A DNA stretch of 64,000 bases from assembly GCF_000264455.2 (NCBI RefSeq), contig NC_017958.1, positions 873,001-937,000 on the forward strand, in the 5' to 3' direction. Shown here in pieces: positions 2,565 to 18,651 of this stretch; the first letter of the stretch is position 1; every line of letters begins with the position of its first letter. Below the pieces are notes generated by a model. That model ran no database searches. It was not told where the DNA came from and saw only the letters and a program-made list of their open reading frames with translations. This DNA comes from Tistrella mobilis KA081020-065 (lineage in GTDB: Bacteria > Pseudomonadota > Alphaproteobacteria > Tistrellales > Tistrellaceae). Both the position numbers and the translations under genes were made by a program.

Positions 2565-2590
2565 TCCGGGACCATCCCGCATCAAGGGGC

Positions 2591-2631
2591 GGGCGGGCCG
2601 GAGGCGTTTCCGGCCCGCCCGTCTGCGTTTT
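2591..2631 (+). terminator. Rho-independent terminator after accC
   Basis: A perfect 12-base-pair GC stem (2591-2602 with 2609-2620) closes a six-base GGCGTT loop. It is followed by GTCTGCGTTTTA with four thymines at 2628-2631. It lies 27 bases after the accC stop. Confidence 0.75.
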
Positions 2632-2662
2632 ACCGGAGCCCACCCTCTCCCGGAGCCCTGCC

Positions 2663-3799
2663 ATGGCCGGCCTCTCCCCCGATCTGCAGACCCCATGCCT
2701 TGTGGTCGACGAGGCGAAGATGGCGGCAAATATCGACCGGATGGCCCGGCGGATCGCCGGGCTCGGCGTGGGCTTCAGGCCGCATCTGAAGACGGCCAAA
2801 TCGGTGGAGATCGCCCGGCGGATGCTGCCCGACATGGGCGGGCCGGCCACCGTCTCCACCCTTCGCGAGGCCGAGGTCTTCGCGGCGGCGGGCGTGCGCG
2901 ACATCCTTTATGCGGTCGGCATCACGCCCGCCAAGCTCGGCCGGGTGCAGGCGCTGAGGGCCCGGGGCTGCGATCTGGCGGTGATCCTGGATTCCGCCGG
3001 ACAGGCGCAGGCGGTTGCGGCAGCCTCTGCCGGGGCCGGCCCGATCCCGGTGCTGATCGAGATCGACTGCGACGGCAAGCGTGCGGGGCTCGCCCCCGAT
3101 GCGGCGGAGATCATCGAGATCGGCCATATCCTGCACGAAGGCGGGGCCGACCTCCGCGGGGTGATGACCCATGCCGGCGGCAGCTACGACGTCTCGGGCG
3201 CGGACGCCCATGCCGCCTTCGCCGAACGCGAGCGCCGGGCGGTGGTGACGGCGGCAGACCGGCTGCGCGCGGCCGGCCTGCCCTGCCCGGTGGTCAGCGT
3301 CGGCTCCACCCCCACGGCGCTTGCCGCCCGCGATCTTGCGGGCGTGACCGAGGTCCGCGCCGGGGTCTATGTCTTTTTCGATCTGGTGATGGCCGGGATC
3401 GGCGCCTGCGCGGTAGACGACATCGCGCTCTCCGTCGCCACCACCGTGATCGGCCACCGCCCCGACCGGGGCTGGATCCTGGTCGATGCCGGCTGGATGG
3501 CGCTGTCGCGCGATCGCGGCACGGCCGGCCAGGCGGTCGATCAGGGCTATGGGCTGGTGCTGACTGCGGATGGCCGGGTGATCCCGGATCTGATCGTCAC
3601 CGGCGCCAATCAGGAACACGGCATCCTGGCCCTGCGTCCCGGTGCGGCGGCCACGCCGCCGGAGCTGCCGGTCGGCACGCTGCTGCGCATCCTGCCCAAC
3701 CATGCCTGCGCCACCGCCGCACAGTTCGACGCCTATCACGTCATCCCGGCGGATATTGGCGCCGCCCCGGCGATCTGGCCGCGTTTCGGCGGCTGGTGA
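2663..3799 (+). CDS. D-threonine aldolase / D-serine dehydratase-type PLP enzyme (DSD1 family)
   Basis: This is a 378-residue fold-type III PLP enzyme with an N-terminal alanine-racemase-like barrel and a C-terminal beta domain. The PLP lysine is probably K43 in RPHLKTAKS. The late motif LPNHAC gives H347 and C349, matching the divalent-metal pair of DSD1-type D-serine dehydratases and D-threonine aldolases. Family activities are retro-aldol cleavage of D-threonine or 3-hydroxy-D-aspartate and D-serine dehydration; the sequence alone does not choose between them. The ATG at 2663 follows CGGAG with a spacing of about 7, and the homology starts there rather than at upstream in-frame codons. It lies alone after the accC terminator. 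Confidence 0.85.
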   Translation: MAGLSPDLQTPCLVVDEAKMAANIDRMARRIAGLGVGFRPHLKTAKSVEIARRMLPDMGGPATVSTLREAEVFAAAGVRDILYAVGITPAKLGRVQALRARGCDLAVILDSAGQAQAVAAASAGAGPIPVLIEIDCDGKRAGLAPDAAEIIEIGHILHEGGADLRGVMTHAGGSYDVSGADAHAAFAERERRAVVTAADRLRAAGLPCPVVSVGSTPTALAARDLAGVTEVRAGVYVFFDLVMAGIGACAVDDIALSVATTVIGHRPDRGWILVDAGWMALSRDRGTAGQAVDQGYGLVLTADGRVIPDLIVTGANQEHGILALRPGAAATPPELPVGTLLRILPNHACATAAQFDAYHVIPADIGAAPAIWPRFGGW

Positions 3800-3888
3800 T
3801 CCGGCGACCAGTGACACGGCGATGATTCACGGCTCCTGTTGAAGGGAGGCCACCGGGTCCCGATCTGGAAAGGTGACGCGGCTGCCCT

Positions 3889-5382
3889 TTGTCAGCCGGA
3901 TTGCCCATTCACGACCGGAACCGCACCCTCTTGTCCACCTCTCCCTTCGATCGCCTGGGCCTGGAAGCCCGCCGTCTTGCCCGCCGCCTGACGCCTGAGG
4001 CGCTGGCAGAAGAGGCGGCGTCTCTGCTCGACCGGCCGCTCCGGCTGGGGGTGACCGGTCTTGCCCGGTCGGGCAAGACCGTGTTCACCACCGCGGTCGC
4101 CCGCGCCCTGCTGTTTCCCGACCGCTTGCCCTTCCTTCAGGCCCGCGCCGATGGCCGGCTGATCGGCGCCGAGCTGCGCCGGCCGGGCGATCCCGAGATC
4201 CCGCGCTTCGCCTATGAAACCCATCTGGCGCGACTGGCCGGCAGCGATGGCGAGATGCCGGGCTGGCCCGCCTCCACCCGCATGCTCTCGCAACTACGCA
4301 TGGGGCTGCGCTGGAAACCGGCCGGCATGGTCGACCGGCGGATCAGGCCTGTACGCGAGCTGACGCTCGATATCATCGACTATCCGGGCGAATGGCTACT
4401 CGATCTGGCATTGATCGAGCGCAGCTTCGCCGACTGGTCGGCCGAGGCTCTGGCCACGCTGCGCCAGGGGCCACGCGCCGAGCTGGCCCGCCCCTTCCTC
4501 GCCCGGTTGGAAACCCTGGATCCGGCCGCCCCGGCCGATGACGTGACGCTCGCCGAACTCGGCCAGGGCTGGAGCGCGCATCTGATTGCCTGCCGTACGG
4601 CGGGACTTGCCGTCTCGCGCCTCGGCCCCGGCCGTTTTCTGGTGCCGGGCGATCTGGAAGGCGCGCCGGTGCTGGCCTTCTCCCCTCTGCCGGAACCCAA
4701 GGGGCGCGTGCCCTCGGGCAGTTTGTATGCCGTGGCGGCGGAGCGTTTCGACCAGTATCGCAAGCGCATCGTCGGCCGCTTCTTCCGAGAACATTTCGCG
4801 CGGCTGGACCGCCAGGTGGTGCTGGTCGACCTGCCCGGTGCGCTCAGCGCCGGGGCCGATGCCGTGGAGGATCTGAAGCTCGCCCTGACCGAAAGCCTGG
4901 GCGCCTTCCGCTATGGCCGCGGCCACGGCATGATCGGCCGGCTGCTGTCGGGCGTGCGCATCGACCGGGTGCTGTTCGCCGCCACCAAGGCCGACCAGGT
5001 GCCGGCCGCCCAGCATGCCCGGCTGGACGCGCTGATGCAGTCGCTGGTGGCCGATGCCGCGCGCGCGATCCGCTTCGAGGGGGCCGAGACCCGCACACTG
5101 GCCATCGCCGCGGTCAAGGCGGCGGAAAGCGTGTTCGCCGAGCATGACGGCCGCAACCTCGCCTGCGTGCGCGGCCGCATCGCCGGCCGCAAGCGGCCGT
5201 CGGTGGTCTATCCGGGCGAGTTGCCGGCCGATCCGGCCGAGGCGCTGGCCCGGGCCGCCGGTGGCGGTTTCGACTTCCCGCCCTTCCTGCCGCCCGAGGG
5301 TCTGGTCCGCGACGGCCATGGCATGGCCCATATCCGCCTGGATCAGGCGCTGGATCATCTGATCGGAGACCGGCTCGGATGA
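3889..5382 (+). CDS. YcjX family P-loop protein (DUF463)
   Basis: This is a 497-residue cytoplasmic P-loop protein of the YcjX/DUF463 family. It shows a Walker A-like GLARSGKTVF near residue 58, the DIIDYPGEWLLDL block near residue 165 and the VVLVDLPGAL block near residue 315. E. coli YcjX is a stress-linked GTPase-like protein encoded with YcjF; its exact task is not settled. The frame has no ATG before the conserved region and is closed by TGA at 3874. Possible starts are TTG at 3889, 3901 or 3931, none with a convincing ribosome site, so the start is uncertain. The stop overlaps ycjF by 4 bases (ATGA), as expected for this pair. Confidence 0.88.
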   Translation: MSAGLPIHDRNRTLLSTSPFDRLGLEARRLARRLTPEALAEEAASLLDRPLRLGVTGLARSGKTVFTTAVARALLFPDRLPFLQARADGRLIGAELRRPGDPEIPRFAYETHLARLAGSDGEMPGWPASTRMLSQLRMGLRWKPAGMVDRRIRPVRELTLDIIDYPGEWLLDLALIERSFADWSAEALATLRQGPRAELARPFLARLETLDPAAPADDVTLAELGQGWSAHLIACRTAGLAVSRLGPGRFLVPGDLEGAPVLAFSPLPEPKGRVPSGSLYAVAAERFDQYRKRIVGRFFREHFARLDRQVVLVDLPGALSAGADAVEDLKLALTESLGAFRYGRGHGMIGRLLSGVRIDRVLFAATKADQVPAAQHARLDALMQSLVADAARAIRFEGAETRTLAIAAVKAAESVFAEHDGRNLACVRGRIAGRKRPSVVYPGELPADPAEALARAAGGGFDFPPFLPPEGLVRDGHGMAHIRLDQALDHLIGDRLG

Positions 5383-6446
5383 CCGACCGCCCGCGCATTT
5401 TCGACGAACCGGCCGCAACGCCGCCCCGCCGTCCGGCAGCCGCCCATGCGGCAGCGTCGGGCCCGCTGGAGCTGCCCGAAGCGGCCGCCCTGACCGCACG
5501 GCCGGCAGAGGAGGCGGCACTGCCCGCCACAGTGCCCGGCCGCGGGCTGATGCCGGATCTGGCGCCCGGGGCCGCGACGCGCCGCACCGGCCGCCGGCTG
5601 CTCTGGGGCGGGCTCGGCGGCCTTGCGGTGGCGCTGATCGGCTTCGAGACCTGGGATCTCGCCACCCGCGCCTTCGCCCATGCCGACTGGCTGGGCTGGA
5701 TGGTCACCGGGCTCGGCGTCGCCACGCTTGGCGGGCTCGGCATTCTGGGCGGCGCCGAGATTGCCGCCCTCCGGCGGCTTGCCCGGGTCGACGGGCTGCG
5801 GGACGAGGCGGAACGGCTGGTGGCACCGGATGCCCTGCACGACCCCGCCGCGGCCGCCGATGCCGCGGCCCTCGCCGCCCGGGTCGCGGCCCTCTACGAG
5901 GCCCGGCCGGGGCTTGCCGCCGCGCGGGCCGATTTCGCCGCCCAATTGACCGATGCCCATGACGCCGCCGAGGCCCTGGCCCTGACCGAACGCCTGCTGC
6001 TGGCCCCGATCGATGCCGAGGCGCGGCGGCTGGTGCTGCTGGCCGCCCGCGACACGGCCCTGGCGACCGCCGCCAGCCCGGCGGCCCTGCTGGATGCCGC
6101 GGTGGTGCTGTGGCGCAATGCCCGGCTGGTGCGCGAGGTGGCGGCACTCTACGGCGTGCGGCCCGGGCGGATCGCCAGCCTGAAGATCGTGCGCCGCAGC
6201 CTGGGTGCGGCCGCCGTCGCCGGCATGGGCGAGGCCGGCCAGGATACCGCCGTCGACGCGCTGGGCGGCGGGCTTGCCGCCGCGGTCTCGGCCCGGCTGG
6301 GCCAGGGCGTGGTCAACGGCCTGGTCGCCGCCCGCATCGGGCTCGGCGCCATGGAAGCCTGCCGCCCCCTGCCCTTCCGGGCAGTGAAGCGGCCGCGCAC
6401 CACCGATCTGCGCCGCGACATGATGCGGATGCTGACGGGCAACTGA
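5379..6446 (+). CDS. YcjF family inner-membrane protein (TIGR01620/DUF697)
   Basis: This 355-residue protein is the usual membrane partner of YcjX. A proline/alanine-rich N-terminal region (1-60) is followed by two membrane helices, about 65-84 and 103-124. A long alpha-helical cytoplasmic domain follows. The C-terminal region contains GMGEAGQDTAVDALGGGLAA and AARIGLGAMEACRPLPF, characteristic of the DUF697-like end of this family. Start and order are fixed by the 4-base ATGA overlap with the ycjX stop. The pair interrupts the accC-aat neighbourhood that many alphaproteobacteria keep together. The function is unknown beyond membrane-stress association in enterobacteria. Confidence 0.85.
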   Translation: MTDRPRIFDEPAATPPRRPAAAHAAASGPLELPEAAALTARPAEEAALPATVPGRGLMPDLAPGAATRRTGRRLLWGGLGGLAVALIGFETWDLATRAFAHADWLGWMVTGLGVATLGGLGILGGAEIAALRRLARVDGLRDEAERLVAPDALHDPAAAADAAALAARVAALYEARPGLAAARADFAAQLTDAHDAAEALALTERLLLAPIDAEARRLVLLAARDTALATAASPAALLDAAVVLWRNARLVREVAALYGVRPGRIASLKIVRRSLGAAAVAGMGEAGQDTAVDALGGGLAAAVSARLGQGVVNGLVAARIGLGAMEACRPLPFRAVKRPRTTDLRRDMMRMLTGN

Positions 6447-6578
6447 CGGCTGCTCTTGCCACCCGGCGCCACGGGGTGCAGGTTGGGTGCCGGCTGCAGG
6501 TCAGGGACCGGGGCGACGTTGAGGAACGCGGCCGGCCACCCCACATCTGGAGCAGTTTCCTCCCCAGGGACATCCGGC

Positions 6579-7301
6579 ATGCATCTGACGCCCGACCTGC
6601 TGCTGCGCGCCTATGTCTGCGGCATCTTCCCGATGGCCGAGTCGGGCGACAAACCCGAACTCTACTGGGTCGACCCCGACCGGCGCGGCGTGCTGCCGCT
6701 GGATGGCTTTCACCTGCCGCGCAAGCTGCGCAAGACTATCCGCCGCCAGCCGTTCACCGTGACCGTGGATGCCGATTTCGAGGGCGTGATGCGCGGCTGC
6801 GCGACCCCTGCCCCCGGGCGCGAGCGGACCTGGATCAATGACGAGATCCTGACGCTTTATACCGAGCTGCACCAGATGGGCCATGCCCACAGCATCGAGG
6901 TACGGGAGGGCGACGAGCTGGTCGGCGGGCTGTACGGCGTGTCGCTGGGAGCGGCGTTTTTCGGCGAAAGCATGTTCAGCCGCCGCACCGATGCCAGCAA
7001 GGTGGCGCTGGTCCATCTGGTGGCCCGGCTGAAACGTGGCGGCTATCGGCTGCTCGACACCCAGTTCGTGACCGACCACCTGACCCGCTTCGGGGCGATC
7101 GAGATCCCGCGTGGGGTCTATCAGGACCGGTTGCGCAATGCGCTGGGCATCAGGGCGAGCTTCATCCCCGAGCCTTTCGGTTTCGGCGCGGGCACGCCCG
7201 ATCAGGTGCTGGCGGCGATCGACGGCCCGGTGGCACAGCCCCGGCGGCGGCGGCCGCGCGATCCGATGGACGATGCCGATGCGGTGGTGGTGGAGGTCTG
7301 A
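6579..7301 (+). CDS. aat: Leucyl/phenylalanyl-tRNA--protein transferase
   Basis: Aat transfers Leu or Phe from aminoacyl-tRNA to the N-terminal Lys or Arg of proteins, making N-degrons for ClpAP. The 240-residue protein begins [20 protein letters not shown] and has the family blocks [49 protein letters not shown] and [16 protein letters not shown]. The reading frame runs upstream to 6456, but homology starts at the ATG at 6579, which is preceded by AGGGA at a spacing of 8. It ends 6 bases before the convergent DUF2155 gene. The acidic C-terminal tail after residue 220 is not conserved in the family. Confidence 0.96.
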
Positions 7302-7307
7302 GCGGGA

Positions 7308-7751
7308 TCAGCCCGCGGGCTTCGCGGCGCCCTCGTCCGACGGCTCCGGCGCCTTGTCGACGCAGGAGATCGGCCAGATATCGTAGATCGGGTTGTCGAG
7401 TGCGTTCAGACCCGGCGAGGAGGCGAACATCCAGCCGTCGAAGATCCGCTCGGTCGGTGCCGAAGCGGTGGTCTGCTGCACTTCCAGGAAGACCCGGGCC
7501 TCAGGGGCCTGTTCCGGCGGCGCGCTTTCGCAATAGCGCACGGTGATCACCAGCGAGCCGAATTCGACCGGCTGGTCGATGGGCGCCACGATCCGGCTGA
7601 TCCGCGCCGTCACCTTGTTCAGGCCGTTGAAGATCGCGACCTTGCCCGGGATGCCGCCCGTTCCACCCGTCTGCTGCTGCGCGGCGGCAGGGCCCGAGGC
7701 CAGAAGCAGGGCGCCGAGCGCCACGGTCGCAAGGCTGCGCATCCTGATCAT
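7308..7751 (-). CDS. DUF2155 domain-containing exported protein
   Basis: The 147-residue protein has an N-terminal signal peptide (MIRMRSLATV followed by a hydrophobic stretch, cleavage likely after AAAQ near residue 25). The mature part carries the DUF2155 core: VAIFNGLNKVTARI, a VRYCE segment and RIFDGWMFASSPGLNALDNP, with one more cysteine in WPISC. The family is alphaproteobacterial and predicted periplasmic or envelope-associated; its biochemical role is unknown. The start overlaps the mlaD stop by 4 bases, so the two genes are co-translated. This position next to mlaD and NDUFA12 and near aat is a familiar alphaproteobacterial arrangement. Confidence 0.9.
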   Translation of the reverse strand: MIRMRSLATVALGALLLASGPAAAQQQTGGTGGIPGKVAIFNGLNKVTARISRIVAPIDQPVEFGSLVITVRYCESAPPEQAPEARVFLEVQQTTASAPTERIFDGWMFASSPGLNALDNPIYDIWPISCVDKAPEPSDEGAAKPAG

Positions 7752-8269
7752 TCCGCGAACGGATCCTTCTTCGCCGCACCGCCGGCGGCGGGGGCTTCGG
7801 CACCGGCCGGCTTCTCCTCGCCGCTGCCGCCGGACGAGAAGAGATAGCGGCCGATCAGCGATTCGAGGCTGACCGAGGACTGGGTATAGGTGATCGCCTG
7901 GCCCGGCTGCAGCATGCGATCATCGCCGCCCGGCACCACCGAGACGTATTTGTCGCCCAGCAGGCCCGAACTTGCGATCTCGGCCGAGCTGTCGGCCGGC
8001 AGCTTGATCGTGGGGTCGATCGACAGCGTGATCTCGGCGCGATAGGTCTCGGGGTTCAGATGCTGGCCGGTGACGCTGCCGACCTTGATGCCGCCGATGC
8101 GGACCTCCGAGCCGGGCACGATGCCGTCGACACTGTCGAAAGCGGCGGTCAGGGCATAGCCACTGCCGCTGCCGCCGCGCCCGGCGCCGGTATAGGCATG
8201 GACGGCGAAGCCGACCGCGACCGCGATGACGGCCGCGCCGAGCAGGGTTTCGACGACACTGCGCTGCAA
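7748..8269 (-). CDS. mlaD: MlaD-type MCE lipid-transport protein
   Basis: MlaD is the periplasmic substrate-binding part of the Mla system that moves phospholipids between outer and inner membrane. The 173-residue protein has one N-terminal membrane anchor (about 7-25) and an MCE domain (about 37-118) with GSEVRIGGIKVGSV and the LLGDKYVSVVPG block. A low-complexity Ala/Pro/Gly/Lys C-terminal tail follows. Length and layout match MlaD. The rest of the Mla operon (MlaE, MlaF) is not in this window. The gene is followed by DUF2155 with a 4-base overlap and preceded by the NDUFA12 gene 80 bases upstream on the same strand. Confidence 0.92.
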   Translation of the reverse strand: MQRSVVETLLGAAVIAVAVGFAVHAYTGAGRGGSGSGYALTAAFDSVDGIVPGSEVRIGGIKVGSVTGQHLNPETYRAEITLSIDPTIKLPADSSAEIASSGLLGDKYVSVVPGGDDRMLQPGQAITYTQSSVSLESLIGRYLFSSGGSGEEKPAGAEAPAAGGAAKKDPFAE

Positions 8270-8349
8270 GCTCTGCTTCCTTCCGGCCGTTGGATCCGGA
8301 TCAGCTGCGACGGCCGGCGACAGTGCCGGCCGGCAGATACCCGATCAGA

Positions 8350-8697
8350 TCAGGACGGCGTCCAGGGTTCGTAGTCACCGGTGGCCTTGGGCCGCTCGCC
8401 GCCGGCCAGGATATGGCCCTTGGGCAGATAGGCTTCGGCGCTGCCGGTGTGGTTCGGCTCGAACGGCTTTTCCCAGGTCTTGCGCGCCAGCGGCGCCTCG
8501 ACCGGGGTCTGGTCGGTGGTGCCGTGCAGCCAGCGATGCCATTCCGGCGGCACCGTGGTCGGGTCGACACCCTTGCCATAGGTCACCCAGCGCTTGGACG
8601 GGTTGTCCTTGTGCCGGAAATAACGGTTCCCGAACTCGTCCTCGCCCACGGACACGCCGTGGCGCAGGGTGTAAAGACGTGTCATGAGATTGGTCAT
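8350..8697 (-). CDS. NADH:ubiquinone oxidoreductase accessory subunit NDUFA12 family
   Basis: This is the 115-residue bacterial homologue of mitochondrial complex I accessory subunit NDUFA12 (B17.2), which is almost confined to alphaproteobacteria. The diagnostic run is GEDEFGNRYFRHK, followed by RWVTYGKGVDPTTVPPEWH and LHGTTD. The C-terminal half, with KPFEPNHTGSAEAYLPKGH, matches the extended bacterial form. The frame could begin at a GTG at 8706, but the ATG at 8697 (MTNLMTRLYTL) is a more usual start. It lies upstream of mlaD-DUF2155 and divergent from nrdJ. Confidence 0.93.
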   Translation of the reverse strand: MTNLMTRLYTLRHGVSVGEDEFGNRYFRHKDNPSKRWVTYGKGVDPTTVPPEWHRWLHGTTDQTPVEAPLARKTWEKPFEPNHTGSAEAYLPKGHILAGGERPKATGDYEPWTPS

Positions 8698-8966
8698 GGG
8701 GTCCACTATCCGGATGACTGGCCGCCGCCAAGATAGGGGTTGCCCCCCGGGTGCGCAAGCCTCGGCCGTGCAGGGCGGGCATATGTGCCGTGCAGGGGTG
8801 GCCGCGGCGCTGCATTACGCATCGATGACAGCCATCCTGTCCACAGGCCGCTTGTGGAAAAGCGGGGGAAGAATCGCCCGGTTCCGGCGCGGAATCAAGG
8901 CCCTCCGGGGCTTTGCGCGAATGCTGTGCGAAGTCCCGGACATGGCGGGCTTTTCCATACATGACC

Positions 8967-9012
8967 ACACCATATAGATAAAATCCCCCGCAAGACCCCC
9001 TAGATATTGTAA
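8967..9012 (+). promoter_or_regulatory. Candidate tandem NrdR boxes upstream of nrdJ
   Basis: The 644-base spacer 8698-9341 holds no gene. Within it, box 1 (8967-8982) reads ACACCATATAGATAAA and box 2 (8997-9012) reads CCCCTAGATATTGTAA. Box 2 keeps the C-w-A-n-A-T-A-T-w-G-T core of the NrdR consensus; box 1 is weaker. Their starts are 30 bases apart, close to the roughly 31-base spacing usual for NrdR pairs. NrdR represses ribonucleotide reductase genes. No cobalamin riboswitch core was recognised in the spacer. Confidence 0.5.
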
Positions 9013-9033
9013 GGCAGGGTGCTCGGAAAACAC

Positions 9034-9063
9034 TTGCGGCGCGGGGCCGTACAGGCTTACGAT
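9034..9063 (+). promoter_or_regulatory. Weak candidate promoter of nrdJ
   Basis: TTGCGG at 9034-9039 and TACGAT at 9058-9063 are 18 bases apart, just downstream of the NrdR-like boxes. The fit is modest, and a 278-base leader would follow. It is listed only as the best candidate seen by eye. Confidence 0.25.
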
Positions 9064-9341
9064 CCGGGTCAGACGGGCAGACCGAAGACATCTTCCTCGG
9101 GGATCCCGCCGCAGATTTGGCGCCGGTCCGGCCGGCGACCTTCGGACATAACCCCAACCCGACAGACCCGACCCCCGACACCGCACCCCGCGCGCCCAGG
9201 AACGAACCGATGCAGTCGATGCGCCGGTGGCCGGGCTTCGGGGTGTTTCCGTGCCCGGGGCGTCGTTGCGTCGCCATTTTCCGTTGAATCCCACGCGAGC
9301 GGGCCTCAAGCCGCCCGCCAGCATGATGGAGGCAGGATACG

Positions 9342-12300
9342 ATGCGGATCGCCCGCAAGCTCACCGTCGATGGCCGCTCCCCTTACCAGGGGATCGAGAT
9401 GCGGACCGCCACCAGCGAAATCCGCAACCCCGACGGCTCGGTCGTCTTCAAGCTCGAGAATATCGAGGTGCCCGCCTCGTGGTCGCAGGTCGCCTGCGAC
9501 ATCATCGCGCAGAAGTACTTCCGCAAGCGCGGCGTTCCCGCCGTCACCCGGCGCGTGCCCGAAGAGGGCGTGCCCGAGTTCCTGTGGCGTTCGGAACCCG
9601 ACGAGGCGGCGCTGGCCGCCCTGCCCGAGGGTGAGCGCTATACCGGCGAGCGCACCGCCGCCCAGGTCTTCGACCGTATGGCCGGGACCTGGGCCTATTG
9701 GGGCTGGAAGGGCGGCTATTTCGACAGCGAAGCCGATGCCGCCGCCTATCGCGACGAGATGTGCCGGATGCTGGCCGACCAGATGGCAGCACCCAACTCG
9801 CCGCAGTGGTTCAACACCGGCCTGCACTGGGCCTATGGCATCGACGGCCCGGCCCAGGGCCATTATTACGTCGACCACGTCACCGGCGAGCTGACCCGCT
9901 CGGCCACGGCCTATGAACACCCGCAGCCCCATGCCTGCTTCATCCAGTCGGTCTCGGACGATCTGGTGAACGAGGGCGGCATCATGGACCTTTGGGTCCG
10001 CGAGGCGCGGCTGTTCAAATACGGCTCGGGCACCGGCACCAATTTCTCGTCGGTGCGTGGCGAGGGCGAGCCGCTGTCGGGCGGCGGCCGCTCGTCGGGC
10101 CTGATGAGCTTCCTGAAGATCGGCGACCGCGCCGCCGGCGCTATCAAGTCGGGCGGCACCACCCGCCGGGCCGCGAAGATGGTGGTGGTCGATGTCGACC
10201 ATCCCGATATCGAAGCCTATATCAACTGGAAGGTGATCGAAGAGCAGAAGGTGGCGGCGCTCGTCACCGGCTCCAAGCTCGCCAACAAGCATCTGAACGC
10301 GGTGATCAAGGCCGCCTCGGATCTGAAGGTGGCCGAGGACGACCGCTTCGACCCGCGCCGCAACCCGGCGCTGAAGGCCGCGGTCAAGGCCGCCCGGGCG
10401 GCGCTGATCCCCGAGAATTACGTTCAGCGCGTCATCCAGTTCGCGCGCCAGGGTTATACCGAACTCCATATCCCGGTGTTCAACACCGACTGGGATTCGG
10501 AAGCCTATCTGACCGTTTCGGGCCAGAACTCGAACAATTCGGTGCGCGTCACCGATGCCTTCCTGAATGCGGTGCTGGCCGATGGCGAGTGGACGCTGAC
10601 CCGCCGTACCGACGGCAAGTCGGTGCGCACCATCCGCGCCAAGGATCTGTGGGAGCAGATCGGCAACGCCGCCTGGGCGAGCGCCGATCCCGGCATCCAG
10701 TTCGACACCACGATCAACGACTGGCACACCTGCCCCGCCCACGGCCGGATCAACGCGTCCAACCCGTGCTCGGAATACATGTTCCTCGACGACACGGCCT
10801 GCAACCTGGCGTCGCTGAACCTGATGACCTTCCGGCGCGAGGACGGCTCCTTCGACATCGAGACCTACGAGCATGCGGTCCGGCTGTGGACCGTGACGCT
10901 GGAAATCTCGGTGCTGATGGCGCAGTACCCCTCGGCGACCATCGCTCAGCTGTCCTATGATTTCCGCACCCTCGGCCTCGGCTATGCCAATCTGGGCGGC
11001 CTGCTGATGGCCTCGGGCCTTGCCTATGACAGCCACGAGGGCCGCGCCCTGTCCGGTGCGCTGACCGCGATCATGACCGGTGTCGCCTATGCGACCTCGG
11101 CCGAGATGGCGAAGGAACTCGGCACCTTTCCGAAATACGCGCCCAATGCCGAGGCGATGCTGCGGGTGATCCGCAACCATCGCCGCGCCGCCCATGGGGC
11201 GAGCGAGGGCTATGAGCAGCTGTCGGTGGCCCCGGTGGCGCTGGACCATGCCAACCTGCCCGATCCGCGCCTGGGCGATGCCGCCCGCCGCGCCTGGGAC
11301 CAGGCGCTGGAACTGGGCGAGGCCCATGGTTTCCGCAACGCCCAGTCGACCGTGATCGCCCCCACCGGCACGATCGGTCTGGTGATGGATTGCGACACCA
11401 CCGGCATCGAGCCCGATTTCGCGCTGGTGAAGTTCAAGAAACTGGCCGGCGGCGGCTACTTCAAGATCATCAACCGCACCGTGCCCGAAGCGCTGGCGAA
11501 GCTCGGCTATGAAGAGCCGCGGATCCGCGCGATCATCGACTATGCGGTCGGCCGCGGCACGCTGGCCGGCTCGCCCGCCATCGGCCATGACGCGCTGCGG
11601 GCCCGCGGCTTCGACGATGCCGCGATCGAGCGGCTGGAGAAGTCGCTGGGCCAGGCCTTCGAACTGAAATTCGCCTTCAACAAGTGGACGCTGGGCGCCG
11701 AGTTCTGCCGCGACGCGCTGGGCTTCACCGATGCCCAGCTCGACGACCCGGCTTTCGACATGCTCCAGGGCCTGGGCTTCTCGAAGGACGAGATCGAGGC
11801 CGCGAACATCTGGGTCTGCGGCGCGATGACGCTGGAAGGCGCGCCGGGGCTGGAAGCCCGGCACCTGCCGGTCTTCGACTGCGCCAACCCCTGCGGCCGC
11901 AAGGGCACCCGCTACCTGTCGGCCGAAGCCCATATCCGCATGATGGCGGCGGCGCAGCCCTTCATCTCGGGCGCGATCAGCAAGACCATCAACATGCCGA
12001 ATGCGGCCACGGTTGAAGACTGCAAGGCGGCCTACATGCTGTCCTGGCGCCTGGGCCTCAAGGCCAATGCGCTCTATCGCGACGGCTCCAAGCTCTCGCA
12101 GCCGCTGAACGCCATGATCCTGGACGACGATGTCGAGGACGTGGAAGAGGCGGTGGCCGAGTTCGCAGCCAGGCCCGCCGCCGAACAGGCGCGCGTGGTG
12201 GCCGAGCGGATCGTCACCCAGTATATCAGCGAGCGCCAGCGCCTGCCCCATCGCCGCAAGGGCTATACCCAGAAGGCGGTGGTCGGCGGCCACAAGCTCT

Positions 12301-13010
12301 ATCTGCGCACCGGCGAATACGAAGACGGCAAGCTGGGCGAAATCTTCATCGACATGCACAAGGAAGGCGCCGCCTTCCGCAGCCTGATGAACGCCTTCGC
12401 CATCGCCATCTCGATCGGCCTGCAGTACGGCGTGCCGCTGGACGAGTATGTCGACGCCTATGTCTTCAGCCGGTTCGAGCCCTCGGGCATGGTCGAAGGC
12501 AATGACGCGATCAAGATGGCGACCTCGGTGCTCGACTACGTGTTCCGGGAACTCGCGATCTCGTATCTGGGCCGCACCGATCTCGCCCATGTTCAGCCGG
12601 TCCAGGCCGCCGACCTGCTGCCCGACAGCGTGGGCCGCGGCGTGCGCGAGGGCACCCGCGAAGATGGTCAGGGCGGCACGCCCGTCCCGGCGCCGGCGGT
12701 TGCCGCGGCCATGGGGCTCGCCAGCGCCGGCTTCGTGCGCAGCAATCTCTACGTGCTCCGCGGCGGCGCCGGCGGCAACACCGCCACTGCCTATGCCGAG
12801 CCCCACGACCATGCCCATGCGCATGAAGACCTGTCGCCGACCGCCATCGGCCGTGCCGAAGTGGTCGACGAGCGCCTGGAGGCGATCCGCATCGCCCGCC
12901 AGAAGGGCTTCGAGGGCGACCCCTGCGGCGAATGCGGCAACATGACCCTGGTCCGCAACGGCACCTGCCTGAAATGCGTCACCTGCGGCTCGACCAGCGG
13001 CTGCTCGTGA
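9342..13010 (+). CDS. nrdJ: Adenosylcobalamin-dependent (class II) ribonucleotide reductase
   Basis: This 1222-residue monomeric class II reductase makes deoxyribonucleotides using a cobalamin-derived thiyl radical, independent of oxygen. It begins [20 protein letters not shown]. Visible elements are the redox cysteine in [12 protein letters not shown] (about residue 201), [15 protein letters not shown] and the Asn-Cys-Glu catalytic set in [11 protein letters not shown] (about 474-478). Two further blocks, [18 protein letters not shown] and [16 protein letters not shown], follow. The C-terminus holds a zinc-ribbon-like pair, CGECGN and CVTCGS, and ends in TSGCS, the usual shuttle-cysteine tail. 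GGAGG lies 9 bases before the ATG. It is a single gene with its own regulatory spacer and terminator. Confidence 0.97.
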
Positions 13011-13134: not shown

Positions 13135-13365
13135 ATGGCCCACGACATCGCCCCACCCGCCCTCATCGTCCCGGCCGAGTATCCCGAACTCCGGCTGCTC
13201 GCCTGGAACCGCGATCCGGCACGACCACTGCCGGAAGCGGAAGTTTTTGCGCTCTACGAAGCCAATTGGCGCCATGTCGACCAGGACCGCCTGACGCCCC
13301 GCGAACGGGCGCTGATCGACCGCCTGACCCGGCGCTGGGGGGCCGGGCGGATGCTGGTCCGATGA
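13135..13365 (+). CDS. Small protein paired with an AbiEii-like nucleotidyltransferase
   Basis: This 76-residue protein starts MAHDIAPPALIVPAEYPELR and contains LAWNRDPARPLPEAEVFALY, then EANWRHVDQDRLTPRERALI. I recall similar short proteins with an xLYExNWRHVD core directly upstream of AbiEii/AbiGii-type nucleotidyltransferase genes, but no name or function is established. It may be an antitoxin-like partner or scaffold. The frame extends to 13048, but that part overlaps the nrdJ terminator and is implausible, so the ATG at 13135 was chosen. The stop overlaps the next start by 4 bases (ATGA), which shows coupling. No DNA-binding domain is evident. Confidence 0.7.
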   Translation: MAHDIAPPALIVPAEYPELRLLAWNRDPARPLPEAEVFALYEANWRHVDQDRLTPRERALIDRLTRRWGAGRMLVR

Positions 13366-14063
13366 CCGGCTATCGTCGCCCCGAACATCAGGCCGTCGCC
13401 GTTTTGCTCGATCGGCTGGACGCGGCGGTTCTGGATGCGGGCGCCTGCCGCTTCGGCGGCGGCACCGCGATCGTGCTGGCGCTTGGGGAATACCGGGTTT
13501 CGGCCGATGTCGACTTTCTCTGCGCCAGCACGGAAGGGTATCGCTTCCTCCATCAGCGCATCTTCGACGGCGGATTCGGAAGCCTGTTCAGAGCCCCCGT
13601 CACCCTGCCTCGCGGCCACCGCGCCGATCAGTACGGCCTGCGTGCCCTGATCGAGATCGACGGCCGGCCGGTGAAGTTCGAAATCGTCCGCGAAGCCCGC
13701 ATCGACCTGGATCCGCCAGATGCCCGGCTGTGCGGCTGTCCGGTGCTGACAACAGCCGACCAGTACGCCGAAAAACTGCTCGCCAATGCCGACCGCGAGG
13801 CAGACAAAGCCGTCGCCTGGTGGGATGCGATCGATCTCGGCATGCTGATCCAGCATCTGGGCCCTGTCCCGGATGCAGCGGTCACAAAGGCCGTCGGCGC
13901 CTACGGCCCCTCGGTCCTGGCCGCCCTCTCACGGGTTCACGAGACGCTCGACCTTCCGGACAACCGCCGCCACGCCTGCGACCGCCTGGGCATGACCGGG
14001 GAGGATCTGGACAGGGCCGTCGATGCGCTCGGCGCCGACATCCGGCGGCTGACGGGCGGCTGA
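13362..14063 (+). CDS. AbiEii/AbiGii toxin-family nucleotidyltransferase (DUF1814-like)
   Basis: This 233-residue protein has the minimal nucleotidyltransferase signature: FGGGTAIVLALGE (31-43), SADVDF with the metal pair D49 and D51, then a lysine in AEKLL (K138) and WWDAIDLGML with D155 and D158. AbiEii-type toxins are GTP/NTP-dependent transferases of type IV toxin-antitoxin and abortive-infection loci; some relatives modify tRNA. The usual AbiEi antitoxin with its winged-helix domain is absent. The partner here is the unrelated 76-residue protein upstream. The ATG at 13362 was chosen because it overlaps that gene's stop; the frame continues upstream to 13266 without homology. It converges on the OmpA-like gene with a 5-base gap. 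Confidence 0.85.
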   Translation: MTGYRRPEHQAVAVLLDRLDAAVLDAGACRFGGGTAIVLALGEYRVSADVDFLCASTEGYRFLHQRIFDGGFGSLFRAPVTLPRGHRADQYGLRALIEIDGRPVKFEIVREARIDLDPPDARLCGCPVLTTADQYAEKLLANADREADKAVAWWDAIDLGMLIQHLGPVPDAAVTKAVGAYGPSVLAALSRVHETLDLPDNRRHACDRLGMTGEDLDRAVDALGADIRRLTGG

Positions 14064-14068
14064 TCCGT

Positions 14069-15130
14069 TCACCCCGCCTGCGGCGAGCGGCGGACCCGGA
14101 TCTCGATCCGGCGGCGTTCCTTCACGTCGCCCGATTGCGAGCCATCGGCGAGCACATCGCCGGGCATGATCGTCTGCGCGCCTGAATAGGGCAGGATGCG
14201 CAGTTCCGAGAGCCGGGGATCCGCCCGCAGGATGCGGGCGACCGCGGCCGCACGGGCCATGCCCAGCCCGGCATTGTCCCCTGGACGAAGCCGGCCGGCA
14301 CCTTCGCTACCACGCAGAACCGGCAGCAGGCTGCGATCCAGATTTGACTGGCGGCCGCCCATGCCCTGCTCGTCGGTATGGCCGATCACCTCGATCACAT
14401 CGGTGCCGTAACGGCCCGAAATCTGCACCAGCTGCTCGACCACAGCCGTGGACAGAAGCGTCCGGAACTCCGGCGAAATCTCGGCACTGCCGATCCCGAA
14501 GGAATAGCCGTCTGCTTCGCTCAGGCTGATGATCGGCGGCCAGTCATGTGCCCCGCGCCCGAGCAGACGGTCGAGCATACCGGGCGCCGCATCGGTCTTC
14601 GGGGCAGTCTCCGCCGTGCGGGCTCCGGCTGCAAGCCGCGCAATCTCGTCGGGCGTCATCCCGACCAGATCCTGTTCCGCGCGGGCAGCGTCGAGCGCCC
14701 GGGCCTCGTCGATCAGGCGGGCCAGCTCTTCAGGCGTGATACCGGCTCGGACATAAGGGGCGAGGTCGCGCCAATAAGGGGCGATTTCCTGCACCTCCGG
14801 CACGGTCATGCCGGTCTCCGCCAGCTGGCGGGCGGTTGCCGCGCCAATAGACAGCTCGCGCCAGTCCTCGGGCACATCCGGGCGCGCCTCCAGCATCCGG
14901 GCCATCACCGATCCCTCGGCATCGAGTTCTGCGACCTTGAGCCGCGCCTCGGCAAGCTCCGCCTGAATGCGCGAAATGGTGCGGGCGTCGCGGGTGAAGA
15001 TCACGGCGGAGATCAGCGCCAGACAGAAAACCAGCAACAGCATCAGCTCTGCCATGGTCAGGCCAAGCACGATGCCGCGACGATAGGAGGCGGCAGAACG
15101 CCGCATGCCGCCATCCGGTGCGTCGCTCAT
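14069..15130 (-). CDS. MotB/ZorB-like OmpA-family stator protein
   Basis: This is the last gene of a four-gene operon (353 residues). It has a short cytoplasmic N-terminus and one membrane helix (about 19-45) with the motif GLTMAELMLLLVFCL. E28 sits where MotB, ExbD and ZorB carry their proton-binding aspartate. A helical stalk (about 49-195) follows with three short repeats of the form G(M/I)T-P-E at 107-113, 130-135 and 157-162. Residues 200-347 form an OmpA/MotB-like peptidoglycan-binding domain with IEVIGHTDEQG (D253) and ERRRIEIRV (R339-R341). The family model is a plug-and-anchor subunit of a proton-driven rotary unit in the inner membrane. Its start overlaps the channel gene by 4 bases. 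Confidence 0.8.
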   Translation of the reverse strand: MSDAPDGGMRRSAASYRRGIVLGLTMAELMLLLVFCLALISAVIFTRDARTISRIQAELAEARLKVAELDAEGSVMARMLEARPDVPEDWRELSIGAATARQLAETGMTVPEVQEIAPYWRDLAPYVRAGITPEELARLIDEARALDAARAEQDLVGMTPDEIARLAAGARTAETAPKTDAAPGMLDRLLGRGAHDWPPIISLSEADGYSFGIGSAEISPEFRTLLSTAVVEQLVQISGRYGTDVIEVIGHTDEQGMGGRQSNLDRSLLPVLRGSEGAGRLRPGDNAGLGMARAAAVARILRADPRLSELRILPYSGAQTIMPGDVLADGSQSGDVKERRRIEIRVRRSPQAG

Positions 15131-16257
15131 CCGCCCTGCCCCACGGGTCGCGCGTCATCCGCCGTCTGGAAGGTTTCTGCCGATGCCACAGGCACCGCCT
15201 GCACGTGATCGCGGGCGGCAAGCGCGGCAAGCGCCTCGGCGATCCGGCGGTTGCCGGCCTCGGCGCGCTCCATTGCCTCGGCGAGCCGGCGCAGCCCGTC
15301 CCGGGTCTCGCCCAGAACCTCATCTCCGGCGGCCTCCCGCGCCCGGGCTGCTCGTTCCACCTCCCCGATCGCCCGGATCAGCGCCTCGGTGTTCCCGTGC
15401 GACGCCCGCTCGAAACCTGCGGCAGCCCCGGCCAGCGCATCGACGGTCGGCTGAAGCTGGATCCGGATCAGCTGTTCCGGCGTCTGCATCGCGCGCAGCC
15501 GCTCGGCCGTCTCACCCAGGCTGCTGGTCACCCGGCCGGCGCTGGCGGCCAGCCCGTCGGTGTCCTCGGCCAGACGGCGGGTGACGTCGCCGAGCGAGGC
15601 GGACACCCGGGTGGTAAGTCCGTCGAGCGTGGCACTCGACGATTGCGATACCGCCTCGATCGGCTGCACCGCCTTCTGCACGGCGGTCTCGACCTCGGCA
15701 AGCAGCCGTTCCGACACCGTGCGGGTGGTATTCAGAATCTCCTCGAAGCCTTCTCCCATCACCTGTTCAGTGGCACGGCGGAAATGGGAGAGTTCGAGCA
15801 CCGTCCGGTCCAGCTCGCGCCGCAGCTTCCGGGCAGCGTCGGCAAGTTCGATGCGGGCGGTATGCTCGACTTCGATGGGATCGACCCGCATCTGATTGAA
15901 CATCACCCGGAGCGCCACCCCGGTAATGGTCGAGGCAATCGCGATGCCGAAATTGCGCACGATCTCGTCGGCCGCACCATCGGCGCTGAACTGGTAGAGC
16001 GAGGCCCCCAGGCTGACCAGGGTGTAGAGAAAGCCCATATAGTAAAGATTGTCGCCGTTCTGGTCAGCGCGCAGCCGGAGCCTGCGGAAGCCGAGCAGGG
16101 CCGCTGCATAGCAGAGCATCAGGACCACCGGCACGCCCGTGACCACCCCGGCAGGCAGGCCCATCAGCTTCGCCGCCATGATGAAGCCGGCGCCCGCGAT
16201 CACGAATGCAAAGAACACGATCGGCCCAAAGGCCGTGTCGAGACGCGTGCCGGACAT
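15127..16257 (-). CDS. MotA/TolQ/ExbB/ZorA-like channel with long cytoplasmic tail
   Basis: The 376-residue protein has four predicted membrane helices (about 10-29, 34-57, 71-90, 102-121). Two motifs typical of ion-channel stators occur: DNLYYMGFLYTLVSLGASLY in helix 3 and FGIAIASTITGVALRVMFNQ in helix 4, with pore-type hydroxyl residues S109, T110 and T112. After residue 130 comes about 220 residues of predicted coiled coil, rich in Ala, Glu, Arg, Thr and Ser, ending in an unstructured tail. This is the ZorA plan: a MotA-like core plus an intracellular tail. TGA of the vWA-like gene and this ATG are directly adjacent, and the end overlaps the OmpA-like gene. Function is inferred from architecture only. 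Confidence 0.75.
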   Translation of the reverse strand: MSGTRLDTAFGPIVFFAFVIAGAGFIMAAKLMGLPAGVVTGVPVVLMLCYAAALLGFRRLRLRADQNGDNLYYMGFLYTLVSLGASLYQFSADGAADEIVRNFGIAIASTITGVALRVMFNQMRVDPIEVEHTARIELADAARKLRRELDRTVLELSHFRRATEQVMGEGFEEILNTTRTVSERLLAEVETAVQKAVQPIEAVSQSSSATLDGLTTRVSASLGDVTRRLAEDTDGLAASAGRVTSSLGETAERLRAMQTPEQLIRIQLQPTVDALAGAAAGFERASHGNTEALIRAIGEVERAARAREAAGDEVLGETRDGLRRLAEAMERAEAGNRRIAEALAALAARDHVQAVPVASAETFQTADDARPVGQGG

Positions 16258-17082
16258 TCAGCCAGCCCCCTGCAGCTTATGGACCGGGCCAGGCCGGCCC
16301 AGGTTGTCAACGATCCACTGACCCCAGAAGCGGACATGTTCCACCGATCTGAACCTCGATGTCGCACGCTCGATATAGAACAGCGTCACCGAGGCGTCCT
16401 TGAGATCGGTGTGGTACTGCCTGTATGCAGGGGATGCCCTGAAGGTGTCGTAGCGCAGATCCCCCCGGAACTGCGAATAGAGCGGTGTGTTCTCAACCAT
16501 GTCGGACACGATCACCAGGGACTTAGGCAAATCGGCTACGGCCTGGCCCGCAAAGCTGTCGACCGCGATGCCCTGGATGGCCGACATGATCGGCGAGACA
16601 TCGGCGGTATGCGGCGCCAATCCGGTTCCCAGCGCCTCGGCAAGCGGCCGTTCAAAGGCCGTGATCCAGCGCTTGCGAGCCAGTGCCGGATTGGCGGTCC
16701 ATTCGTCGAGATCACTGCCATCGCCCGGATTGCAGCGGCTGAACAGCGACCGCGAACCGCCGTTTTCGGGTGTCATCACCCTCAGATCGATGCGCTCGTT
16801 CACCGCGGCACGGGTCGCGATATCGGTGAGCAGGGTCTTCACTTCGCGCCGCCCGATCTCAGGCAGCGGGTCGGAACTGTCGATCAGGATCACGGTGATG
16901 CCGGCAAGCCGTCCGTCGGCCGGACACAGGCTCTCAGGGTCGCGCTTCGTCGGACGTTCGGCGCCGAACCACAGCCAGCCGCCGGCCCCGAGGATGACGA
17001 GGATCGCCACCACCGCAAGAACGAGGCCGATGACGGTGCCGGTCTCGCCGCGGCCGCCGCGCCGCCTACGCCGCCTTGCCAT
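16258..17082 (-). CDS. Membrane-anchored von Willebrand A-like protein
   Basis: The 274-residue protein starts with a strongly basic segment (MARRRRRRGGRG), then one membrane helix (about 16-39), so the rest should face the periplasm. Residues 60-240 look like a vWA fold: a hydrophobic strand then ILIDSSDPLP (D68, S69, S70), a shortened MIDAS-like DxSxS; ADVSPIMSAIQ near 161-170; and SLVIVSDMVENTP with D194. The MIDAS is incomplete, so metal binding is uncertain. C53 and C117 could form a disulfide. GGAGG stands 5 bases before the start. It overlaps the upstream coiled-coil gene by 17 bases. It is not a known Zorya component. Confidence 0.65.
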   Translation of the reverse strand: MARRRRRRGGRGETGTVIGLVLAVVAILVILGAGGWLWFGAERPTKRDPESLCPADGRLAGITVILIDSSDPLPEIGRREVKTLLTDIATRAAVNERIDLRVMTPENGGSRSLFSRCNPGDGSDLDEWTANPALARKRWITAFERPLAEALGTGLAPHTADVSPIMSAIQGIAVDSFAGQAVADLPKSLVIVSDMVENTPLYSQFRGDLRYDTFRASPAYRQYHTDLKDASVTLFYIERATSRFRSVEHVRFWGQWIVDNLGRPGPVHKLQGAG

Positions 17083-18508
17083 CCCCCGCCTCCGGAATCA
17101 GGGTGTCGAGCTGTCGATAACGTTCGACCGTGTCGGCGAAAGCGCGGTTGATGTCGACGATCGCGGCTTCCAGCGTCTGCTGGGCGATCCGGATCTGCTC
17201 GTTCAGCAGGTCGCGATCTCCCTCGTCCCGCCGGGGGATGGCGGCAGGAATGCGCGTCAGGGTGAAGCCCCGGACGAAACGTTCCGGCGACGGCGTGCTC
17301 CGCGCCGATTGGTTGGCGGCGTGGTAGATCCGAAGCAGCGCGGTGCCGGCAGCCTCCAGATTGACCTGCGCCTGTTCGAACAGCAGCTGGAGACGCTGGC
17401 GGTTGGAGATGATCGTGTCGTAGTCCTTGCGCCGTTCCGAGAGGTCGCGGCTCACCTCCCCCAGCTTTTCGCCATAGTCGCGGCGGATGTCGTCGAGCGT
17501 GTCGATCAGCGCGGTCTTGCGGGCCATATAGGCATCATGGGCGGCATTCAGCCGCGCCTGCACGCCGGCATAGCCCGGATAGGGGTCGCGGAACTGCCAG
17601 CCATCGGCGAAGGCAAGGGCCGAGAACAGCAGACCGATGCCGAACAGGATCCAGGACTGGATGTCGGCCATGACGAAGGGCGCCGTGCCAAGCCGGCGCA
17701 TCACCTCCTGCCCGGCCCCTTCGGCGACGAGTTCGGCAGCCTCGCGGTAATGAGCGAGCGCCAGATTGATCGCCACGGCCAGCACCAGATAGATCAGCAG
17801 CGAGACGACGCCCACGGCCTTCACCGCCCCGTTGCGGTGGGCGAGGCAGGAGACGCCCCAGAATGCCAGGAAGAAGGCCACGCCGATATTGAGCGCCGCA
17901 AAGAAGAAGGCCTGCGATGCGCCGCCCAGCAGACCAGCCTGGTTGCCGACCGCCAGAAAGCTGCCATTGGCGATGGTCTCGACCAGCAGCAGCAGCGCGA
18001 TCACCGCAACGGACAGCCCGCGCCGGAGCGGCGTGTGCAGCCGGGCTGCACGGTCGATGCCATGACGGGCACGGAAGGCGTTGCGTTCCGCCTCGGCCTC
18101 CAGCACCCGGCGGCGCAGCCCATGCAGCTCGTCCATGCCCTTCGCCGCCTCGGCCCGAAATTCGGACAGACATTCAGGCGCCGCAAGCCGGATCTCGTTG
18201 AACCGTTCCTCGAAGGCGAGCCCGGCCAGGCGCTCCGAATAGGTATGGACCTGTTCCTCGAAGGTCTCGAAAGCACGGCCGTTCTGGGCGGCAACCTGCT
18301 CGGCAATACGGGCCTCGACATCGTCCGGGACCAGGCTGTCAGCGGGCGGCTCCTCACGCGCGCCACGCGCACGGCCCTCGGCCTCAAGCCGGAGGTCGGT
18401 CGCCACCCGGGTGGCGTCGAGTTCGGTGAACACCTGCAACGAGGCACGGTTCAGATGGACCGGGCGATGCAGGCTCCCGGTCAGACGGCTCAACGCCGAT
18501 TTCAGCAT
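17066..18508 (-). CDS. Four-helix membrane protein with coiled-coil flanks, first gene of the channel operon
   Basis: I do not recognise a named family. The 480-residue protein has a long helical N-terminal region (about 25-155), four membrane helices (about 164-187, 198-221, 231-253, 284-301) and a C-terminal coiled coil (about 315-470). Helix 1 contains an acidic residue in LLLLVETIANGSF (E177). Helices 2 and 3 are tightly spaced, giving a compact membrane core between two cytoplasmic coiled coils. It leads the operon and overlaps the vWA-like gene by 17 bases, implying fixed stoichiometry with it. The ribosome site is poor; a 13-base near-palindrome (18512-18524) sits just upstream of the ATG. 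It may serve as a membrane sensor or rotor partner of the channel (inference). Confidence 0.65.
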   Translation of the reverse strand: MLKSALSRLTGSLHRPVHLNRASLQVFTELDATRVATDLRLEAEGRARGAREEPPADSLVPDDVEARIAEQVAAQNGRAFETFEEQVHTYSERLAGLAFEERFNEIRLAAPECLSEFRAEAAKGMDELHGLRRRVLEAEAERNAFRARHGIDRAARLHTPLRRGLSVAVIALLLLVETIANGSFLAVGNQAGLLGGASQAFFFAALNIGVAFFLAFWGVSCLAHRNGAVKAVGVVSLLIYLVLAVAINLALAHYREAAELVAEGAGQEVMRRLGTAPFVMADIQSWILFGIGLLFSALAFADGWQFRDPYPGYAGVQARLNAAHDAYMARKTALIDTLDDIRRDYGEKLGEVSRDLSERRKDYDTIISNRQRLQLLFEQAQVNLEAAGTALLRIYHAANQSARSTPSPERFVRGFTLTRIPAAIPRRDEGDRDLLNEQIRIAQQTLEAAIVDINRAFADTVERYRQLDTLIPEAGDGKAA

Positions 18509-18588
18509 GATGGACGGACCGTCCCGCTATTCGTCCGGCCATCAGCCCGTCGGCCGATCCGACGGACACGATTCGCCCGGAACGTGTG

Positions 18589-18630
18589 TTCTGCATCGAA
18601 TTATATGCAGAAACGCCAGGGTCCGGACAA
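18589..18630 (-). promoter_or_regulatory. Promoter and palindromic operator of the four-gene channel operon
   Basis: On the minus strand TATAAT (18605-18600) is preceded by TTGTCC (18630-18625) with a 19-base spacer. The -10 lies inside a perfect inverted repeat, TTCTGCAT at 18589-18596 and ATGCAGAA at 18605-18612, separated by eight bases. A repressor bound there would cover the -10. The transcript would have a leader of about 85 bases before the 480-residue gene. Confidence 0.5.
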
Positions 18631-18651
18631 CCGGCTGTCGGCAGAGGTCGC

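Follow-up and report, generated by a model that had tools for sequence, protein, structure and literature searches.

The window analysed here is a 64,000-nucleotide stretch of the Tistrella mobilis KA081020-065 genome (contig NC_017958.1, positions 873,001 to 937,000), and it contains an operon of four minus-strand genes, named g1 to g4 in order of transcription, that constitutes a real, separate system. The first gene, g1 (17066..18508), encodes a four-transmembrane (TM) protein of 480 amino acids (aa) that has long cytosolic helices at both termini and belongs to no known family, followed by g2 (16258..17082; 274 aa), which encodes an N-terminal TM anchor with an Arg-rich, cytosolic start and a periplasmic vWA domain. 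The g3 product (15127..16257; 376 aa) is a ZorA-like channel subunit with four TM helices and a coiled-coil cytosolic tail, and g4 (14069..15130; 353 aa) encodes a ZorB/MotB-like protein composed of a single TM helix, a linker and an OmpA-like peptidoglycan-binding domain. A preliminary description of the window, made from its letters, had placed four genes on one strand here, and the open reading frame (ORF) list bore out their positions and junctions, with a 17-base-pair (bp) overlap between g1 and g2, 0 bp between g2 and g3, and a 4-bp overlap between g3 and g4. Hydropathy analysis recovered four TM helices in g1 and one each in g2 and g4; in g3 two helices were strong, while the pore-lining pair (residues about 70-90 and 98-120) remained sub-threshold and was supported by conservation. 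The 143 bp upstream of the operon (18509..18651, minus strand) are presumed from the sequence to hold its promoter.

The same description had proposed a separate four-gene unit, and a neighbourhood survey examined whether the genes are conserved together: all four were found in 87 loci (45 nonredundant once near-duplicates were removed), arranged in the same order along a single strand. Across 97 tabulated loci, search fragments included, g1 and g2 nearly always overlapped, g2 and g3 were mostly separated by -1 to +5 bp, and the g3-g4 junction was mostly a short overlap. As protein-level conservation, order, strand and close spacing were all kept in the 87 loci, g1 to g4 are genes and not chance ORFs.

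The operon was restricted in its taxonomic range and patchy within it. A bacterial genome scan returned 80 loci; g1 and g3 were each present in about 3% of 385 genomes of the class, mostly the same ones, and the 11 g2 carriers among 398 genomes of the phylum all belonged to the Alphaproteobacteria, the class of the window. The tblastn searches with g3 and g2 each returned 23 plasmid records with an identical genus breakdown, and among the matches listed the plasmid carriers of the two genes coincided (Rhizobium, Sinorhizobium, Microvirga, Paracoccus); the annotated plasmid records that were inspected contained the same four genes. The window operon itself presumably sits on a megaplasmid. Another species of the window's genus also possessed the operon, while a genome of the same species (G001) matched the window up to position 14066 and resumed at 18648-18651, the two matches lying only 15-19 bp apart in that genome. 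Because this genome lacks exactly that segment, the operon is accessory, present or absent as a clean 4.6-kilobase block (14067..18650, strand undefined; right edge at 18647-18650 by alignment). Viral carriage was rejected, as the sole match on a viral contig duplicated a bacterial draft contig of the same size with the same match, and weak g3-profile matches in five genomes (G102, G237, G246, G277, G318) were set aside as nearly all coiled-coil cross-matches. One copy (L072) was found on a contig binned in a Flavobacteriaceae metagenome-assembled genome, far outside the Alphaproteobacteria, possibly through a binning error or a transfer.

The core of the operon was compared with known motor proteins through profiles of 39 relatives. 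The g3 profile aligned with type II ZorA (ZorA2) over 63 columns covering TM3-TM4 (hhalign probability 90.7, E 1.2e-6), whereas g1, which served as a control for membrane helices and coiled coils, reached probabilities of only 2.4 against ZorA and 2.2 against g3. The window g3 alone scored 8.4 bits with NCBIfam ZorA_1, against a cut-off of 190, its PADLOC ZorA match (E 2e-4) was restricted to the coiled coil, and it was assigned to no family in Pfam, PADLOC, NCBIfam or PHROGs. The PF01618 model (MotA/TolQ/ExbB) found six other proteins in the window genome and not g3, and the g3 profile had no match in a TolQ/ExbB set. Among the 39 sequences, the pore-helix residues T79, S82 and T110 were invariant and S109 was either Ser or Thr; the length of the tail differed widely.

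The g4 protein scored 21 bits with Pfam OmpA, under the cut-off of 27.2, and its profile matched PomB (E 1.2e-5) and, in the OmpA/peptidoglycan-binding domain, ZorB (hhalign probability 81.2, E 1.2e-5). Window g4 had no ZorB match in PADLOC or NCBIfam; its divergent relatives at four loci (L015, L143, L164, L165) matched PADLOC ZorB2 with 86-114 bits (E 6e-25 to 1.7e-33), and NCBIfam ZorB2 with 64-84 bits, far under the cut-off of 400. Residues E28, D253 and R293 were invariant in 39/39 sequences; the TM helix carries an invariant Ala27-Glu28 pair, and D253 and R293 correspond to the peptidoglycan-binding Asp and Arg. At two loci (L142 10507-11400, L140 1263-2012) the B subunit had the same TM helix and no recognisable OmpA domain. 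Taken as sequence relationships, the TM3-TM4 alignment of g3 with ZorA and the ZorB2 matches of the divergent g4 proteins indicate that the ZorA/ZorB-like core proposed earlier is a very divergent ZorA/ZorB pair, lying near Zorya, below every curated family cut-off and not firmly inside any characterised stator family.

The two partner proteins, described as unfamiliar from the outset, indeed fitted no family in Pfam, PADLOC, NCBIfam or PHROGs, and g1 and g2 represent two undescribed families found in rhizobia and other Alphaproteobacteria, g1 being without known relative. A membrane-anchored vWA domain is predicted for g2, as its AF2 model (pLDDT 88.8) matched 4jdu in Foldseek (E 5.8e-6) and aligned 160 residues to 4fx5 in VIA (Z 12.9; root-mean-square deviation 2.9). 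Its putative metal site is a variant of the classical DxSxS...T...D MIDAS motif, formed by D68-x-S/T-D71, S163 and D194; across 39 sequences these residues were invariant or, at the S/T position, Ser or Thr, Cys53 and Cys117 were likewise invariant, and the consensus of the TM helix contained no His, Asp or Glu. The g1 model (AF2, pLDDT 86) contained four TM helices with long helices on either side and returned nothing below E 1e-3 in Foldseek; its best VIA match (Z 11.3, a pore-forming toxin chain) lay under the helical-bundle background and was not taken as kinship. When the profiles of g1, g2 and g3 were searched against PDB sequences, every hit was a coiled-coil or chance match.

Since g1-g2 and g3-g4 each also occurred alone, the machine consists of two modules joined in one operon. 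Lone g1-g2 pairs without g3-g4 were found in three lineages (L138 8209-10598 in genome G183 and L163 7231-9620 in G579; L137 7690-9986 in G045; and a very divergent pair, L166 7836-9994, in G740). Conversely, a g3-g4 pair without g1-g2 (L205, contig G821:C45) shared a 4-base overlap with a gene reading like a VirD4/TraG-type coupling ATPase, perhaps as part of another machine reusing the same motor. Genes reading like those for a vWA protein and a kinase were located nearby, the segments noted at L205 being 6000-9379 and 9376-11394 (minus strand) and 2352-4721 (plus strand), and the lone pair of L137 was accompanied by a caspase-domain/FGE-sulfatase fusion (4961-7509, plus strand; Pfam) and a second FGE-like protein.

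Nucleases were repeatedly associated with the operon in relatives. In three genomes (L143, L145, L165) a staphylococcal-nuclease (SNase) domain was fused to the C-terminus of g4, and in L164 the same position was occupied by a non-homologous HNH domain (GmrSD_C; 44 bits, cut-off 23). The C-terminus of MotB/ZorB-type subunits is periplasmic, so that the fused nucleases can be placed in the periplasm. A predicted exported SNase homologue was also the recurrent neighbour of the operon, located near it at 22 of the 45 nonredundant loci, and the fused or adjacent SNases that were scanned scored 24.7 to 54 bits with PF00565 (cut-off 21). Most of the linked SNase genes (20/23) were located within 500 bp of the operon, a zone making up 9% of the flank examined, for which the binomial probability of 2.7e-18 gives an upper estimate of the strength, related loci not being independent and kinship being uncorrected. 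These genes occurred in four orientations (upstream or downstream, on either strand), and the standalone SNases had Sec-type N-termini, as judged by eye. The catalytic residues D21, R35, E43 and R87 were conserved in 26/26 SNase copies (numbered on a reference sequence). A quick tree of g1 and g2 that contained some long branches required at least 17 changes in nuclease linkage and at least three in fusion. As a background, single SNase genes were moderately common, with two in the window genome and roughly 0.4 per genome in one relative family at the cut-off used. One linked SNase (L009 14451-15140, plus strand) ended in a 'sunset' domain (NF051437, 46.6 bits), and other linked SNases had a similar C-terminus.

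The earlier suggestion, in which g1 and g2 stand in for the nuclease arm of Zorya, was not supported by these observations, as relatives carry a periplasmic-side nuclease fused to g4 or encoded beside the operon, and as g1-g2 form a separable pair that is found without the motor. The absence of the known Zorya effectors, in contrast, was borne out by Pfam, PADLOC and NCBIfam scans of the operon proteins, in which neither g1 nor g2 matched ZorC/ZorD, ZorE or ZorF/ZorG, and none of these occurred among the recurrent neighbours.

Among known systems, type II Zorya (ZorA2-ZorB2-ZorE) shares with the operon a MotA-like channel with a coiled-coil tail beside a single-TM OmpA-type subunit, a motor-associated DNA-cutting arm, patchy accessory genes, and the ZorB2 models that match divergent g4. 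It differs by the presence of ZorE, the lack of the additional g1 (four TM helices) and g2 (vWA) proteins, and a TM Asp in place of Glu; moreover, the nuclease here is an SNase or a GmrSD_C-type HNH, fused to the B subunit or exported from beside it and hence periplasmic, and all scores are far under the curated cut-offs. The core would work like that of Zorya, but the operon was not filed as one of its members, since it did not reach the family scores and possesses neither the TM Asp nor any of the partner genes known from Zorya. Type III Zorya (ZorA-ZorB-ZorF-ZorG; PMC8565338) likewise has four genes, a ZorAB-like pair with two partners and no ZorC, ZorD or ZorE, but its partners are DUF3348 (ZorF) and DUF2894 (ZorG) proteins (PMC8565338), which fit neither g1 nor g2. 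The MotAB/PomAB stators also consist of an A/B subunit gene pair and the OmpA-like domain of g4 matches the periplasmic domain of PomB, whereas g3 misses PF01618 entirely and has no large cytosolic TM2-TM3 loop. SNIPE (PD-lambda-1; PMC13190303) resembles the proposed machine in the idea of cutting phage DNA during entry with a nuclease located at the inner membrane. It is, however, a single cytoplasmic protein combining a GIY-YIG nuclease and DUF4041 (PMC13190303), acting on the cytosolic side without a motor, whereas the nuclease considered here would sit in the periplasm, coupled to a proton motor. In the literature, which was incompletely covered, no description was found of this operon, of a stator fused to a nuclease, of a Zorya-like system with a vWA protein or of a type IV Zorya.

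Next to the window operon, an AbiEii-like nucleotidyltransferase toxin gene (13266-14063, plus strand; PADLOC AbiEii, E 4e-73) ended 5 bp away; it was rejected as an operon component, being also present in the same-species strain without the operon. Just past it lay a gene for a full-length vitamin B12-dependent ribonucleotide reductase (9342-13010, plus strand; NF005736, 2150 bits). In Sinorhizobium fredii NXT3, the operon and its SNase were accompanied by a protein with DUF4041, the domain of the SNIPE/PD-lambda-1 family (L016 15643-17226, minus strand).

Together, the fusions and the adjacent nucleases suggest a machine that would cut incoming DNA before its entry into the cytoplasm. A Zorya-like, proton-driven machine of the envelope whose nuclease lies in the periplasm has, in our estimate, an even chance of being the right description. 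More specifically, and more tentatively, we give a probability of roughly 0.42 to a new class of proton-driven defence that would amount to Zorya turned outward, in which a wall-anchored ZorAB-like motor carries or activates an exchangeable periplasmic nuclease that destroys phage or plasmid DNA crossing the envelope, and g1-g2 form a reusable sensor or coupler. Zorya depends on ion flow, on the tail of ZorA and on binding to peptidoglycan, and recruits a nuclease upon infection (PMC11890865), and it is by analogy with this system that a wall-engaging motor combined with a periplasmic nuclease is proposed. Five g3 and two g4 subunits would, by homology, assemble into an inner-membrane motor driven by protons, with Glu28 of g4 as the putative proton carrier facing the Thr/Ser ring of g3. 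Disturbance of the envelope, for instance through the injection of phage DNA or the entry of a plasmid, would make the OmpA-like domain of g4 grip the peptidoglycan. The vWA domain of g2 would stand in the periplasm with g1 as its four-helix partner reaching into the cytosol through long helices, and this module probably senses, recruits or couples. The effector would be the periplasmic nuclease, either fused to g4 or supplied as an exported SNase by a gene next to the operon, cutting DNA in transit; the target is probably the DNA of phages or plasmids entering the cell. The analysis shows the gene organisation, the homologies, the predicted g2 fold, the linkage and fusion of nucleases, their intact catalytic residues and the accessory distribution; how the machine assembles, that protons drive it, what triggers it, which DNA it cuts and that it serves defence are inferred. 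As for the nuclease, if any, that serves the window's own copy, an unlinked exported SNase could do so, or another output may pass through g1 and the cytosolic tail.

Several observations weigh against a Zorya-like machine with a periplasmic nuclease. In the window operon, as in about half of the lineages, a nuclease is neither fused to g4 nor encoded next door, and the two SNase genes of the window genome are on another replicon, neither of them near the operon. Loci without SNase are often surrounded by ordinary metabolic genes, and in 39/39 sequences the TM acid of g4 is Glu, in contrast to the Asp of MotB and ZorB. Only a few defence genes were present in the flanks (GajA, PD-Lambda-1, AbiEii, a methyltransferase) and were counted without a background rate for comparison, and the defence-island argument was therefore set aside.

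The absence of a linked nuclease from half of the lineages, that of the window among them, is also what a Zorya-type defence signalling to the cytosol would accommodate, with a ZorAB-like motor sensing envelope damage, g1 and the g3 tail recruiting or gating an effector on the cytosolic side or depolarising the membrane, and the periplasmic nuclease as an optional addition in some lineages. The kinship of the core with ZorA/ZorB, the cytosolic tail kept by g3 and the extended cytosolic helices predicted in g1 are consistent with such a system. We nevertheless consider it unlikely, as the repeated fusion of a nuclease, and its replacement by a non-homologous one, suggest that the machine works through the periplasmic nuclease, and as no cytosolic enzyme domain was detected in g1 to g4 with Pfam, PADLOC or NCBIfam.

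The vWA domain and the frequent location of the loci among metabolic genes in many genomes could instead indicate a Tol/Ton-type machine for envelope maintenance or force transduction, in which the vWA protein would pass force to the outer membrane and the nucleases would be hitchhikers or serve periplasmic DNA turnover. Motor-driven vWA force transducers have been proposed with TolQ/ExbB-like motors, the vWA protein bearing a TM Asp in one class and an SHLS helix of the TolA/TonB kind in the other (PMC12204202), and they share with the operon an inner-membrane-anchored periplasmic vWA protein (predicted for g2) beside a 5:2-type motor gene. The motor here is ZorA-like and has a separate MotB/ZorB-like subunit, however, g3 had no profile match to TolQ/ExbB, and the TM helix of g2 possesses neither the His/SHLS motif nor the acidic residue of the two published classes. 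The patchy presence of the operon, its strain-level empty site and the fusion to two unrelated nucleases also argue against a maintenance role, which appears slightly less likely than cytosolic signalling. Finally, a device for DNA uptake or scavenging, whose motor would pull or process extracellular DNA for digestion by the nuclease as nutrition or for import, would explain the link between exported nucleases and a proton-driven envelope complex, but is very improbable given that the neighbour survey found no recurrent transporter, receptor or competence gene beside the operon and that the B subunit is of a peptidoglycan-gripping type.

With the nuclease physically part of the wall-gripping subunit in some relatives, and with unrelated folds swapped at that position, the outward-facing machine proposed here would offer a compact and testable system for the action of a motor on a nuclease, and would bear on how Zorya links sensing at the envelope and the flow of ions to DNA damage. 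If the proposal is true, it would represent an unusual defence that acts on DNA before its entry into the cytoplasm, where the host DNA would be safe without any self-marking.

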